From an uncultured bacterium (GTDB taxonomy: Bacteria; Verrucomicrobiota; Kiritimatiellia; UBA8416; CAMZLY01): DNA of 34,235 bases. Every line of letters begins with the position of its first letter. Position 1 is the first letter of the stretch. The notes below the pieces were generated by a model. It did no database searches, had not been told where the DNA came from, and was given only the letters and a program-made list of their open reading frames with translations. The DNA lies in contig CAMZLY010000199.1 in NCBI GenBank assembly GCA_947311825.1, positions 1 to 34,235 of the forward strand, in the 5' to 3' direction. Positions 5,626-30,306 of the stretch are shown one piece after another. The translations under genes were made by a program, and so were the position numbers.

Positions 5626-6066
5626 ATGACTGAAACAGATTGTATTTTTTGCAAGATTATTGCTGGCGAACTGCCGTCTACAAAGATATATGAGAATGAT
5701 ACTACTTTGGCATTTATGGATATAGGTCCAATAGCTAAGGGACATGTGTTGGTTGTACCTAAAAAGCATAGAGAGATGATTACCGATACCGAACCGGAGA
5801 TTTTGGCTGGTATTATGACGGTGACGAAGATGGTTTCACAAGCACAAATTGATGGGATGAATGCTGATGGGGTTAATATTACGCAGGCTAATGGAGCCGT
5901 TGCCGGGCAAGTTGTGCCGCATTTGCACTTTCATGTTATTCCACGGTTTAAAGATGATGGTGTAGATTTTAATTGGCAGGCACAAAATTATAGTGATAAT
6001 GAGGAAATGATAGAGTTTGCGGAAAAAATAAAAAAAGAATTTAGACAAAATGATTTGAAAAGATAA
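5626..6066 (+). CDS. HIT family protein (histidine triad nucleotide hydrolase)
   Basis: 146 residues with the HIT fold. The catalytic triad motif H99-L-H101-F-H103 lies in VVPHLHFHVIPR, and the N-terminal CIFCKI zinc pair (C6, C9) and LAFMDIGPIAKGHVLVVPKKH are typical of the HinT/Hit branch, which hydrolyses purine nucleoside phosphoramidates or Ap4A-like compounds. The start has AGGA about nine bases upstream. The last residues (QNDLKR) are encoded by the first unit of the tandem array at 6044-6296, so either the C-terminus was extended by the repeat or the array grew from the gene's 3' end. The domain itself ends well before this point. Confidence 0.93.
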   Translation: MTETDCIFCKIIAGELPSTKIYENDTTLAFMDIGPIAKGHVLVVPKKHREMITDTEPEILAGIMTVTKMVSQAQIDGMNADGVNITQANGAVAGQVVPHLHFHVIPRFKDDGVDFNWQAQNYSDNEEMIEFAEKIKKEFRQNDLKR

Positions 6067-6296
6067 GTCTCGACAAAATGATGGTCGACAAAATGATTTG
6101 AAAAGATAAGTCTCGACAAAATGATTTGAAAGATAAGTCCGACAAAATGATGGTCGACAAAATGATTTGAAAAGATAAGTCTCGACAAAATGATGGTCGA
6201 CAAAATGATTTGAAAAGATAAGTCTCGACAAAATGATGGTCGACAAAATGATTTGAAAGATAAGTCCGACAAAATGATGGTCGACAAAATGATTTG
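6044..6296. repeat. Tandem array of alternating 28-bp and 15-bp units (seven A, five B)
   Basis: Every unit begins GACAAAATGAT. A units continue TTGAAAAGATAAGTCTC (28 bp), or the 26-bp variant TTGAAAGATAAGTCC; B units continue GGTC (15 bp). The order is A(6044) B(6072) A(6087) A'(6115) B(6141) A(6156) B(6184) A(6199) B(6227) A'(6242) B(6268) and a partial A(6283-6296). The usual higher-order period is 43 bp, or 41 with A'. The array overlaps the HIT gene's last codons and ends 30 bp before the ATG of the Minf_1886 gene. Minus-strand reading frames through it (repeating FCRPSFC-like peptides) are artefacts of the repetition. Confidence 0.93.
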
Positions 6297-6821: not shown

Positions 6822-8319
6822 GCAACCAGAACCTACAGCCTATAGTCTAAAGTCTAAACAACCTAAGACGAATTTACATCTTTGGTTATTTAATATAGCC
6901 GCAGACCTTATTGCGGTGATTGCTGCATATTATACAACATATTTGATTCGTTTTCATACGGCCTGGGGTAATTATTTGTTAAGCACTATCAAACCGGCAT
7001 TTGGTGGTTCGTATAACACATTTCCTGCAAATAGTTACCCTGATTTCTATATTGCAAGTGCTCCTCGTATAATTTTTATTGTATCAATGATTCTTTTTAC
7101 AATTTATGCGTTACGAAACTTGTATGCCGGACGGCGTTTTATTATCAAACGTGATGAAGTATGGAATATTCTATATGCAAATTTTATAACACTAATAATT
7201 TTCTATTCATATTTCTATCTTCGCCGTAATATGTTTCATCCACGTAGCTTCTTTGCCATGTTAATTGTGTTGAATTGCGGATACACTATTATATTTCGCT
7301 CATTAGCAGAACGCTTATTAAAGATTATCCGTGCTGATGGAATAACAGATCGTTGCCGAACTATTGTTGTGGGCAACAGCGAACAAGGTGAGATTTTATG
7401 TAAATATATTGATAAAACCCATCCGCATGGAATGCATATTGATAAAAAACTTATCCGTAATCCGCATGAATCATTCAGTACCTTTTGTGAAAGAATTGCA
7501 CAAGTAGGTCAAAAACAGAAGATTGATATGATTATATCTGCGGATAAAGATTTACCAGTAGTAGAAATAATGCAGTTATTAGAAGTCGGTGATAAACTTA
7601 ATTGTGCAATAAAAGTATTATCGGACAAGCTGGATGTCCTTATTATAGAGGCAAAAATGCCGGTTGATATGATACAAGGAGTAGCACTGTTTCATTTTGA
7701 TGCACCGACTTCTAGTTGCCTGGATATTATGAAATTAGCCTCATCATTTACGCTTGCTCTATTTGCCAGCATAATTTTACTACCGTTACAGTTATTCATT
7801 GCATTCCTAGTCAAAACAACATCTAAAGGGCCCGCATTATTTGTTCAAGAACGTATCGGGGTTAACCGTATTCCGTTCAAAATGTATAAGTTCAGAACAA
7901 TGAAAGATTGTGCCGAAGAAGAACTGGCACAAATAGAAGAGTTTAATGAATCAGATGGTGGCCTTTTCAAAATCAAGGACGATCCAAGAATTACACCCAT
8001 TGGAAAGTTCCTTCGAAGATACAGCCTGGACGAGCTTCCGCAACTGCTAAATATTCTTAAAGGTGAAATGCGTATTGTTGGCCCGCGTCCATTACCGCGT
8101 AGAGATTTTGAGAACTATTATGAAGAATGGCATTATAGCAGGCATGGAGGAATGCCAGGCTTAACCTGCCTTTGGCAAGTTTCAGGACGTAGCCATATAG
8201 ATTTTCATAATATGTGTATCTTGGACGTTTATTATCTTCGCAATCATAATTGGATTCTGGATATAAAAATAGTATGGAGAACATTTGCTGTTGTCCTATT
8301 TGCCAAAGGTGCATATTAA
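6814..8319 (+). CDS. Polyprenyl glycosylphosphotransferase (EPS-priming sugar transferase, WbaP/WcaJ-like)
   Basis: 501 residues. An N-terminal membrane part has about four helices (residues ~20-45, 85-105, 120-145, 150-165), followed by a Rossmann-like CoA-binding middle domain, another helix (~305-335), and the bacterial sugar transferase domain. Landmarks in the last are GPALFVQERIGVNRIPFKMY, KFRTM, DDPRITPIGKFLRRYSLDELPQ, GPRPLPRRD (~423) and the GLTCLWQVSGRS region. The enzyme transfers a sugar-1-phosphate to undecaprenyl phosphate, the first step of EPS/O-antigen repeat synthesis. Residues ~5-16 are encoded by 7-bp repeats (CCTACAG, CCTATAG, TCTAAAG, TCTAAAC), so the extreme N-terminus looks repeat-derived. 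AGGA lies 13 bp upstream of the start. Confidence 0.93.
   Translation: MKMQPEPTAYSLKSKQPKTNLHLWLFNIAADLIAVIAAYYTTYLIRFHTAWGNYLLSTIKPAFGGSYNTFPANSYPDFYIASAPRIIFIVSMILFTIYALRNLYAGRRFIIKRDEVWNILYANFITLIIFYSYFYLRRNMFHPRSFFAMLIVLNCGYTIIFRSLAERLLKIIRADGITDRCRTIVVGNSEQGEILCKYIDKTHPHGMHIDKKLIRNPHESFSTFCERIAQVGQKQKIDMIISADKDLPVVEIMQLLEVGDKLNCAIKVLSDKLDVLIIEAKMPVDMIQGVALFHFDAPTSSCLDIMKLASSFTLALFASIILLPLQLFIAFLVKTTSKGPALFVQERIGVNRIPFKMYKFRTMKDCAEEELAQIEEFNESDGGLFKIKDDPRITPIGKFLRRYSLDELPQLLNILKGEMRIVGPRPLPRRDFENYYEEWHYSRHGGMPGLTCLWQVSGRSHIDFHNMCILDVYYLRNHNWILDIKIVWRTFAVVLFAKGAY
6832..6859. repeat. Degenerate heptad repeat within the sugar transferase N-terminus
   Basis: Four consecutive 7-mers, CCTACAG, CCTATAG, TCTAAAG and TCTAAAC, occupy 6832-6859. 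The same 7-mers (CCTATAG, CCTACAG) recur upstream of cysNC at 22704-22724. Confidence 0.7.
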
Positions 8320-27194: not shown

Positions 27195-28235
27195 TCACAC
27201 TTTTGAACTTGTGAACTTTACTGTTTTATTCCCTTTTGTAACTTTTCCTATTATGACAGGGCGTACTTTGGCTTTTTTAAGGATCTTCATAGATTCTTCG
27301 GTATCTTTTTTGCGAACAATAATTATATATCCAATACCCATATTGAAGACGCGGTACATTTCTTCGCGATCGACTTTGCCTGTATCTTGAATAAATTGGA
27401 ATAGAGTAGGAGTTTTCCAAGTAGAACGGTCTATTTCTGCATCAACTTTATCCGGTAGAATACGCGGAACATTATCTATTAATCCGCCACCGGTAATATG
27501 TGCCATGCCGCGAACTTTTACTTTTTCCATTAAGGCTGTAACTGGTTTTAGGAAACTTTTGTGTACTTTTAGTAATATGTCGGCAACGGTTTGTTTGGTG
27601 CCGGGAAAAATATCATCAATTTTTAGTCCGGCTTGCTCAAATATCACTTTTCTTGCTAGTGAATAGCCGTTTGTTTGTAGTCCGGATGATGGCAGCCCTA
27701 TAATTGTGTCACCGGCTCTTACTGCACTGCCGGTAATAATATTCTTTTTTGCTACTGTACCGATAATAGTGCCTACCAAGTCATATTCTCCTTCAGGATA
27801 TAGCCCTGGCATTTCTGCTGTTTCTCCGCCGAGTAGGGCACAGCCGTTTTCGGAGCATGCTTTACATAGACCTTTTACAACATCTTTAAAAACTGAACCT
27901 TCTAGCTTGGCAGCTCCTAAATAGTCTAAGAAAAAGAGTGGTTTTGCACCCTGAACAAGAATGTCATTTACGCAATGATTTATCAGGTCTTGTCCGATGG
28001 TATGATGGCGGTTGGCCATTGCCGCAACTTTTAGCTTTGTGCCAACTCCGTCAGCACTAGCGACAAGAACATTTTCTTTGCCGGGTGATTTAAATAATCC
28101 ACCAAAAGAGCCAATATCACTGAGTACATCAGAGGTGGCTGTTTTTTTGACCATTTTTTTTACTGCAGTTAGTGATCCCATCATTTCGTCAATATCAACA
28201 CCTGCTTCAGCATAAGATGATTTTTTCTTTTTCAT
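27195..28235 (-). CDS. purM: Phosphoribosylformylglycinamidine cyclo-ligase (AIR synthetase, PurM)
   Basis: 346 residues, the usual length. PurM catalyses the ATP-dependent ring closure of FGAM to aminoimidazole ribotide, the fifth step of purine synthesis, in the cytosol. Family motifs are YAEAGVDID at the start (residues 8-16), S60ADGVGTKLKVA, NDILVQGAKPLFFLDYLG, GGETAEMPGLY (136-146) and, in the C-terminal domain, HITGGGLIDNVPRILP and FNMGIGYIIIV. It stands alone rather than in a pur operon. It is flanked on both sides by copies of the same ~105-bp repeat. GGAA lies about 15 bases upstream of the ATG at 28235. Confidence 0.97.
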   Translation of the reverse strand: MKKKKSSYAEAGVDIDEMMGSLTAVKKMVKKTATSDVLSDIGSFGGLFKSPGKENVLVASADGVGTKLKVAAMANRHHTIGQDLINHCVNDILVQGAKPLFFLDYLGAAKLEGSVFKDVVKGLCKACSENGCALLGGETAEMPGLYPEGEYDLVGTIIGTVAKKNIITGSAVRAGDTIIGLPSSGLQTNGYSLARKVIFEQAGLKIDDIFPGTKQTVADILLKVHKSFLKPVTALMEKVKVRGMAHITGGGLIDNVPRILPDKVDAEIDRSTWKTPTLFQFIQDTGKVDREEMYRVFNMGIGYIIIVRKKDTEESMKILKKAKVRPVIIGKVTKGNKTVKFTSSKV

Positions 28236-28468: not shown

Positions 28469-28544
28469 GCTGATAGACGGTAATGATGCCTCATTTGATT
28501 ATTTCTCAGGCTCGATAATAAAATGTGGCATCATGTGTGCATTT

Positions 28545-28612
28545 TAACTCTATTCTCGCTGTGCGAGCTGGGAAAAAGATGGGTGGCAGAATGATTTCTA
28601 AAGCTTTGTTGG
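28545..28612. repeat. 68-bp direct repeat, left copy
   Basis: It is identical to 29458-29525 at 65 of 68 positions, in the same orientation. It starts TAACTCTATTCTCGC and ends CTTTGTTGG, and contains the hairpin CTCGC-TGT-GCGAG. The two copies bound the nucleotidyltransferase module. Confidence 0.92.
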
Positions 28613-28807
28613 TAACTTCTCAAAAAAGTTATAAATTTAGAGTTATAAGCAAGATTGCATATTTTATCGGCAGTTCAACTACCGTTTCTGGAATTAAAAT
28701 TTTATATGTTATTGTAATCTCAGTTATTTTCATGTTAGGCTTATCTTCATTCAGTCGTTGTTTAGGTGCGTATTGTCCTAGATGATAAACTACGGAGTTG
28801 AAGAAGC

Positions 28808-28999
28808 ATGGAAAAAGTACTTAGTATAGAAAAAAATAATTCTAACGAAAAAGGTATTGATCTCACAAAAAACTATAGTGGAAATCAGAGGGTTTCAATG
28901 CTAGAAGATTTAAGACGACAGATTTCAAAGGTAACACAACATGAATATCCAAAACGACTTCGAAGAATTCTTGAGATTACTCGTCAAACACAAAGTTAA
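28808..28999 (+). CDS. Small protein encoded with a nucleotidyltransferase (putative module partner)
   Basis: 63 residues with no membrane segment. The recognisable part is the C-terminal half, SMLEDLRRQISKVTQHEYPKR followed by LRRILEITRQTQS: basic, probably helical, and resembling small proteins that I recall being encoded directly upstream of stand-alone nucleotidyltransferases. The last 59 bp overlap the nucleotidyltransferase gene in another frame, so translation is coupled. It has no HEPN motif (R-x4-6-H), so this is not a standard HEPN/MNT pair. The start has GGAG fifteen bases upstream. The molecular role is unknown, perhaps an antitoxin-like or DNA-binding partner. Confidence 0.6.
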   Translation: MEKVLSIEKNNSNEKGIDLTKNYSGNQRVSMLEDLRRQISKVTQHEYPKRLRRILEITRQTQS

Positions 29000-29408
29000 G
29001 TTTGTGCTTGTTGGAGGCTATGCTGTTGCTTTCCACGGCTATGTGCGGACCACTAAAGATATGGACATTTTCTTCTGTGACTCCGATGATAATATTGAAA
29101 AAATTATAAATACGCTACGTGATTTCAGTATCAATACAGATAATACTCTCAAAAAGGAACTACAAGAACCTGGTAGCATAATCAGAATGGGCATACCGCC
29201 TGTTATGATAGAAATGATAAATAGACTTAGCGGTATCTCATTTTCTGAAGTATGGGAACATCGTATTGCCGGAAAGTATGGTGATATTTCGGTAAATTAT
29301 ATTTCTTATAAAAACCTGCTGATTAATAAAAAAGCGGCTGGGCGACCCAAAGATCTTGCAGATGTTGATGAACTTGGCGGAAACCGCCCTCCAACCTTCA
29401 ACATTTAA
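28941..29408 (+). CDS. Nucleotidyltransferase (MNT/AbiEii-like, DUF6036-type)
   Basis: 155 residues. The nucleotidyltransferase core is clear: FVLVGGYAVAFHGYVRTTKDMDIFF gives the G25-G...H-G33 loop and metal pair D40-x-D42, and MIEMINRLSGISFSEVWEHRI supplies the third strand region. ISYKNLLINKKAAGRPKDLAD is the usual C-terminal helix pair of this group. Such enzymes transfer NMP groups to RNA or proteins, and several act in toxin-antitoxin or abortive-infection modules. The terminal GGNRPPTFNI is not typical and may be a read-out into adjoining DNA. It overlaps the 63-residue gene by 59 bp, and the pair is bounded by 68-bp direct repeats. Confidence 0.85.
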   Translation: MNIQNDFEEFLRLLVKHKVKFVLVGGYAVAFHGYVRTTKDMDIFFCDSDDNIEKIINTLRDFSINTDNTLKKELQEPGSIIRMGIPPVMIEMINRLSGISFSEVWEHRIAGKYGDISVNYISYKNLLINKKAAGRPKDLADVDELGGNRPPTFNI

Positions 29409-29457
29409 CCTAAAAAAAGCATTTGAACTACGATAAATTACGAAAAATCTGAACTCC

Positions 29458-29525
29458 TAACTCTATTCTCGCTGTGCGAGCTGGGAAAAAGATGGGTGGC
29501 AGAATGATTTTTTAAACTTTGTTGG
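29458..29525. repeat. 68-bp direct repeat, right copy
   Basis: The partner of 28545-28612 (three mismatches, all in the last 15 bp). It begins 49 bp after the nucleotidyltransferase stop codon. Confidence 0.92.
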
Positions 29526-29557
29526 CTAGGGAAAGAGGTGTGCGGGGAACGGTGCAG

Positions 29558-29597
29558 AGCACCGTTGTACGGGGATGTAAATCGGTTTTCTGGGTCG
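29558..29597 (+). repeat. ~40-bp dispersed repeat, copy 2
   Basis: It matches 21589-21628 at 32 of 40 positions. Here it is joined to an upstream arm forming the AACGGTGC/GCACCGTT hairpin and is bracketed by GTGCGGGG and GTACGGGG. Confidence 0.7.
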
Positions 29598-29644
29598 ATG
29601 TATATGCTGGAAACAATAAGAATTACAGCCTAATTCTCTGCACC

Positions 29645-29660
29645 TGTGAAAAAAATCACA
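29645..29660. promoter_or_regulatory. Operator 1 of the hyd operon (Rex- or CRP/FNR-like palindrome)
   Basis: TGTGAAAAAAATCACA is a perfect 5-6-5 inverted repeat (TGTGA-N6-TCACA), ending 7 bp before the -35. It fits the inner part of the Rex consensus (TTGTGA-N6-TCACAA) and equally the CRP-type site. Rex, an NADH/NAD+ sensor, is the more logical regulator for an NAD-linked hydrogenase. Confidence 0.7.
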
Positions 29661-29667
29661 CTTTATG

Positions 29668-29695
29668 TTGACATAATTACAATATCTGTTATCTT
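29668..29695 (+). promoter_or_regulatory. Promoter of the hydCBA operon
   Basis: A perfect -35 TTGACA (29668-29673), 16-bp spacer, and -10 TATCTT (29690-29695, 4 of 6). The predicted start is at about 29702, inside operator 2. Confidence 0.65.
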
Positions 29696-29700
29696 TCAGC

Positions 29701-29775: not shown

Positions 29776-30306
29776 ATGTATGATGACTGTAGTGAGTGTC
29801 ATAAAGAACTGGATATTTTAGGTAATCTTCCAGAAAAACGTGCTGAACTTGAGGCGTATATTGAGTCTCTTCCGCTGGGAGATGATCGTGATAAGAACCG
29901 TGGATATTTGATTCAGGTCTTACATAAAGCACAGGGGATCTTTACTTATTTGCCGCAATGTATTCAGCTGTTTGTGGCTGATAAGCTTAAACTTCATCTT
30001 TCTGAAGTATATGGAGTTATTTCATTTTATTCATTTTTTACCGATACACCGGTAGGAAAATTTAAAATTAATGTCTGCATGGGAACTGCCTGCTTTGTTA
30101 AGGGGGCTGGTGCGGTACTTGATGAATTTAAGCGGTACCTTGATCTTGATGAGGGTGAAACGTCTGAAGATAGAAAATTCTCTCTGGGCGGCTTGCGTTG
30201 TGTTGGTGCGTGCAGTCTGGCACCGGTTGTTATGGTGAACGATAAGGTTTACGGTGGTGTAACCACAGATATGGTTCCTAACATTATTAACGAATGTAAA
30301 TTATAA
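29776..30306 (+). CDS. hydC: NuoE-like subunit of NAD-dependent [FeFe] hydrogenase (HydC)
   Basis: 176 residues. A four-helix N-terminal part is followed by a thioredoxin-like [2Fe-2S] domain with ligands C101 and C106 (VCMGTACFVKGA) and C142 and C146 (LRCVGACSLAPV), the C-x4-C...C-x3-C pattern of NuoE/HydC. LIQVLHKAQGIFTYLP and EVYGVISFYSFF are family hallmarks. In the heterotrimeric HydABC complex it relays electrons between the flavin subunit and the hydrogenase subunit. AAGGAG lies 8 bases before the ATG. It is the first gene of the operon, 9 bp before hydB. Confidence 0.94.
   Translation: MYDDCSECHKELDILGNLPEKRAELEAYIESLPLGDDRDKNRGYLIQVLHKAQGIFTYLPQCIQLFVADKLKLHLSEVYGVISFYSFFTDTPVGKFKINVCMGTACFVKGAGAVLDEFKRYLDLDEGETSEDRKFSLGGLRCVGACSLAPVVMVNDKVYGGVTTDMVPNIINECKL

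Follow-up and report, generated by a model that had tools for sequence, protein, structure and literature searches.

A MenAT-like gene pair between 68-bp direct repeats that may be the scar of its insertion

The window, by which we mean the whole stretch of 34,235 nucleotides that was analysed, contains a two-gene module enclosed by direct repeats in the spacer between a purM-like and a nuoE-like gene (Table 1). The two repeats lie on the same strand, with a start-to-start spacing of 913 and 845 bp between them. The sequence-only reading had described two 68-bp repeats matching at 65 positions, each with a CTCGC-TGT-GCGAG motif; the pair was confirmed at exactly the coordinates of Table 1, and the motif is present in both copies. 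A match of this quality is not to be expected by chance (self-BLAST E about 1e-21 to 1e-24). The homology is cut off abruptly at all four edges, and the three mismatches are confined to the final 15 bases, after 53 identical ones. An assembly artefact of one repeat was rejected, since the two copies differ and the sister species has the same two neighbours, purM and the nuoE-side promoter. The content of the interval also proved to be as the sequence-only reading had it, i.e. just the two genes and a leader (a 63-aa ORF, a nucleotidyltransferase (NTase) gene and 195 bp of leader), with no recombinase, integrase or transposase among them. An 86-aa ORF at 28525-28785, which overlaps the left repeat, showed a sub-threshold Pfam match alone and is unsupported as a gene, and no credible Rfam match was obtained in the locus.

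Table 1. Features of the purM-nuoE spacer and of its borders, with positions in the window
Feature	Position	Strand	Remarks
Left neighbour, purM-like gene, 346 aa (named by eye)	27195..28235	-	Conserved in sister species
Left direct repeat, 68 bp	28545..28612	+	Found in the genome at this locus only
Dispersed genomic repeat, 36 bp (GGTAACTTCTCAAAAAAGTTAT...)	28611..28646	+	Abuts inner edge of left 68-mer; 4 other genomic copies
Leader between left repeat and small ORF, 195 bp	28613..28807	+	No gene supported
Small ORF, 63 aa, probable antitoxin	28808..28999	+	Conserved partner 5' of most related NTases
NTase, 155 aa, probable toxin (DUF6036/DUF2204, AbiEii/MenT-like)	28941..29408	+	T38, D40, D42, K130, D138, D141 conserved
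Right direct repeat, 68 bp	29458..29525	+	65/68 identical to left repeat
Dispersed hairpin element (ACGGTGCAGAGCACCGT...)	29544..29600	+	Just outside right 68-mer; many genomic copies; fold z = -4.0
Promoter-side sequence of right neighbour	29644..29697	+	91% in sister species; right limit of variable spacer
Right neighbour, nuoE-like subunit, 176 aa (named by eye)	29776..30306	+	

The NTase scored above the Pfam cut-offs of DUF6036 (34.9 against 23.6) and DUF2204 (24.7 against 20.3), and with DUF1814/AbiEii (PF08843) it reached 19.6 bits, under the cut-off of 22.5. The residues G25, T38, D40, D42, K130, D138 and D141 are invariant in 12 NTase homologues, and the protein exhibits the GG...T.DxD motif with the downstream Lys and Asp expected of an NTase. 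A profile built from the 12 homologues matched MenT1 of M. tuberculosis (8an4/8an5/8rr5) with E = 1.7e-6. The alignment covers the NTase core over 127 positions with the catalytic residues aligned, and T38, D40, K130 and D138/D141 are the apparent counterparts of MenT1 residues T39, D41, K137 and D152, as these are given in PMC10435456. The single-sequence structure prediction of the NTase had a pLDDT of 40, too poor for use, and a literature search found no paper under the Pfam name of this NTase family. The NTase is probably a toxin.

The small ORF and the NTase gene overlap by 59 nt, and an ORF of ~60 aa, overlapping the NTase start, was found just upstream in most of the NTase homologues. 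Purifying selection acts on the non-overlapping part of the small ORF, with a dN/dS of 0.11-0.21 in seven of eight homologous pairs and of 0.52 in the remaining one. The single-sequence model of the 63-aa protein is one long helix, residues 25-61, with a pLDDT of 72. No family match was found in Pfam, NCBIfam or PADLOC, and none to a HEPN domain; a PDB profile search together with the same three resources gave no match to MenA1 or to COG5340 (AbiEi). The helical protein is a probable antitoxin, and it represents a conserved family missing from Pfam, NCBIfam and PADLOC that could be new.

MenAT1 of M. tuberculosis consists of a DUF1814/AbiEii NTase toxin, MenT1, and the 68-aa MenA1 (PMC10435456, PMC11375011). 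MenA1 is encoded upstream of MenT1, apparently without a DNA-binding domain (PMC10435456), and the system has been described as potentially horizontally acquired (PMC10435456, PMC11375011). Like MenAT1, the module in the window has a small antitoxin-type gene directly upstream of an NTase whose core aligns; unlike it, the NTase is of 155 aa against 196 aa for MenT1, with its best scores in DUF6036/DUF2204, and the small partner has no detectable sequence similarity to MenA1. Because AbiEii remained below its cut-off and no similarity between the partner and MenA1 was detected, the module is termed MenAT-like here and is not assigned to MenAT/AbiE itself.

MNT-HEPN and other mobile two-gene modules of toxin-antitoxin (TA) type have been described, with cases in which a module is inserted at a locus where close relatives are otherwise syntenic (Makarova et al. 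2009, PMC2701414); "direct repeat" is a term absent from the main text of that paper. The module shares with MNT-HEPN a small NTase in a two-gene arrangement and a patchy distribution, whereas its partner, of ~60 aa and with a single predicted helix, is not HEPN. Direct repeats beside a TA pair were reported in Mycoplasma mycoides subsp. capri, where the authors read them as scars of previous recombination (PMC8562856). That module is a different one, with an AAA-ATPase and a subtilisin-like protease, and the likeness is in the repeat arrangement, as described there.

Relatives of the NTase were found in 38 of 57 related genomes. At L103, L104 and L107, loci from three genomes of two families, the modules are 82-90% identical in DNA. 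The stretch they share, about -153 to +459 around the NTase start, corresponds to the two genes, and the likeness extends at most ~25 bp past these on either side, the flanks being unrelated. In the sister species (G003), the purM-nuoE spacer measures 339 bp between conserved flanks (79% on the purM side, 91% on the nuo-promoter side) compared with 1315 bp here; module and 68-mer are both absent from it, and its content is fully replaced by other repeats. L102, a related NTase module, has no counterpart at the aligned position in a congener, which has 102 bp there against 891 bp. For L110, L160 and L108, no relative with both sides of the junction conserved was found, and no phage carriage of the module was detected in phage records or IMG/VR. 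The absence from the orthologous site in the sister species, the absence of L102 in the congener and the near-identical modules at unrelated loci show that the two genes form a genuine, mobile unit, one that moves although it encodes no recombinase. A gain in this lineage is most likely, rather than a loss in the sister species. As to the suggestion of a non-autonomous element carrying a TA pair, the part that stands is thus a TA-like pair that moves without its own recombinase, and the part that finds no support is the 68-mer as a working component of recombination.

The sequence-only reading had proposed a recombination cassette, to be checked by a search for other 68-mers and for empty sites with a single one. 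No third full copy was found in the 2.5-Mb genome itself (88% complete), in 30 other genomes of the order, in 345 others of the class, or in phages or plasmids, and no other cargo lies between such repeats in this genome or in the 345 class genomes. An empty site with a single 68-mer was likewise not found. A 20-bp core of the repeat was not found in viral contigs, and its three exact matches in genome contigs, with nothing similar around them, are consistent with chance. Because the full 68-mer is found nowhere else in the genome, the 345 relatives, phages and plasmids, it is not a disseminated recombination site, and a role as a disseminated mobile site was rejected. Folding of either copy, on either strand, was not significantly better than that of shuffled sequence, and a hairpin function of CTCGC-TGT-GCGAG was rejected on this ground.

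A short intergenic motif, seen both in this genome and in the sister species, counts the 3' half of the 68-mer (GATGGGTGGCAGAATGATTT) among its members. The motif is genus-level and dispersed, and it occurs without any cargo. Single scattered 68-mers had been named in advance as the finding that would speak against a cassette: this applies to the 3' core motif and not to the full 68-mer. The same motif family forms a tandem array of ~43-bp units on TCGACAAAATGATTTGAAAAGATAAG at 6032-6296 of the window, directly after a HIT-like gene (named by eye).

We also searched related loci for flanking repeats, applying a single test to every set. Of 67 NTase modules, 15 lie between direct repeats, compared with 6 of 69 PIN (VapC) toxins (p = 0.024) and 0 of 22 purM genes (p = 0.009); at the gene level and on the same contigs, the counts were 11/54 for NTase modules against 3/90 for small ORFs (p = 0.0013) and 7/219 for large ORFs (p = 7.5e-5), all p-values being indicative only because the first cases were already known when the thresholds were set. 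No flanking repeat was detectable at the other 52 of the 67 modules. The bracketing repeats are about 30-170 bp long and of a different sequence in each case, and they form a mixed set, in which some are dispersed elements and others resemble a duplicated target. To the dispersed elements belong the repeats at L107 and L118, of which further copies exist, and those at L126. There, the NTase module has a group II intron remnant (RF02001) on either side, at 1682-1780 and 2477-2575 (strand-turned), the first with an apparent internal deletion, and an Rfam match is also present at 7637-7807 of this locus. The group II intron as a general carrier was rejected, intron remnants being found as repeats at this one locus. 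L108 and L205 are the cases that resemble a duplicated target. At L108 the repeat corresponds to the 3' end of a small gene. At L205 (G037:C28), a VapC-like PIN module lies between a transposase-like and a glycosyltransferase-like gene (both named by eye), and its repeats, at 1417-1496 and 2146-2226, are an 81-bp duplication from the 3' end of the transposase-like gene, which precedes the module. This site is empty in three relatives, where the transposase-like gene is single and is followed by the same downstream gene, without the module.

Some repeat pairs in the same material were noted in their own right. The second NTase module of this genome, L098 (G000:C111), is bracketed at 197-257 and 1414-1474 by repeats of 61 bp with 95% identity; these belong to a different, hairpin-rich family and resemble a repeat in the purM-nuoE spacer of the sister species. 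Within the same 645 kb, solitary accessory genes, e.g. those of ORF6N and AAA_14 proteins, are likewise enclosed by background repeat pairs. Direct repeats of 108-281 bp were observed around AAA_14 ATPase, ORF6N and histidine-kinase-like genes (L113:1914-3345; L100:49-1522; L107:5389-6656).

We favour the reading, with a probability of about 0.58, that a MenAT-like module entered the spacer and that the 68-mers are the scar of this insertion and duplication, not a dedicated recombinase site. The repeats are best read as a duplication at module entry because the full sequence exists only as a pair around the module. The pair at 28808-29408 would be a MenAT/AbiE-like module, composed of an NTase toxin and a 63-aa antitoxin from the overlapping upstream ORF, and the toxin might act by nucleotide addition to tRNA or another RNA. 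Such a module would spread as a bare two-gene unit and would have entered the repeat-rich purM-nuo spacer, most likely after the split from the sister species. Duplication and insertion would then be one event, in which a pre-existing stretch of the spacer was copied so that it now stands at either side of the insert as the 68-bp repeats, possibly by fill-in of a staggered break, by template switching or by recombination with an incoming molecule carrying the same sequence. The finding adds modestly to a known type of selfish gene pair and is not a new recombination system.

A pre-insertion state with a single 68-mer was not found in the sister spacer, and an independent duplication in this repeat-rich spacer therefore stays a serious rival, although we consider it clearly the less probable account. 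It supposes two coinciding processes, i.e. a local duplication of the 68-mer unrelated to the module, and a module that came between or beside the copies in some other way. Dispersed elements do abut both edges of the pair, the sister spacer was wholly replaced by other repeats, and the bracketing repeats of several related modules are themselves dispersed elements. The mini-repeat inside the 68-mer, its 3' half, belongs to a motif that is dispersed intergenically in the genus, which makes an independent local duplication possible. A coincidence sits less well with a full 68-mer that exists only as a pair, exactly around the module, and with the enrichment of flanking repeats at NTase modules over the same-contig gene-level controls.

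A dedicated recombination site is unlikely, and a non-autonomous cassette of which the 68-mer would be the site, attC-like as in integrons or attL/attR-like, served by a recombinase in trans, appears very improbable. The layout resembles that of integron cassettes, a single small module having direct repeats on either side with a spacing of ~0.9 kb, and the repeat begins with TAAC and ends with GTTGG. The integron attC is an imperfectly palindromic site with RYYYAAC ... GTTRRRY ends. The ends found here, GTTGGTA and GTTGGCT, do not fit GTTRRRY, the halves of the 68-mer are not complementary, neither strand forms a long hairpin and the bottom strand is without the attC fold; attC identity was thus rejected. 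Unlike integron cassettes, the locus also has no conserved boxes and no array, and the lack of a third copy or of other cargo in the 2.5-Mb genome and the 345 class genomes speaks against any cassette, as do the related modules, flanked by entirely different repeats or by none. Still less credit can be given to a transposable-element relic, in which the 68-mers would be the directly repeated ends of an IS, a MITE or a composite transposon whose transposase was lost. Short dispersed repeats do abut both 68-mers, but no inverted repeats pair the two ends, no transposase lies in the interval and, unlike an IS end, the 68-mer is absent from other loci; such ends were rejected.

The insertion scars of bare TA gene pairs without transposase or integrase have rarely been examined. 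Comparison across the class yielded module boundaries, empty sites and a raised rate of unrelated flanking direct repeats, and these make the insertion mechanism testable through single-copy targets in strain collections. The family of the small partner could be new; a common insertion process that leaves long target duplications could be so too, but with low probability. An undescribed class-wide process that inserts TA-like modules and also solitary accessory genes (AAA_14, ORF6N), none of them with its own recombinase, duplicating tens to ~170 bp of the target, with the 68-mers as one of its footprints, is a doubtful proposal when taken as a whole.

At the contig edge, positions 1-136 of the window consist of four exact 34-bp tandem units (CGTTATGCTTGGACGAGGTGGCACTCGTCGCTCC), and these probably explain why the contig stops at this point.
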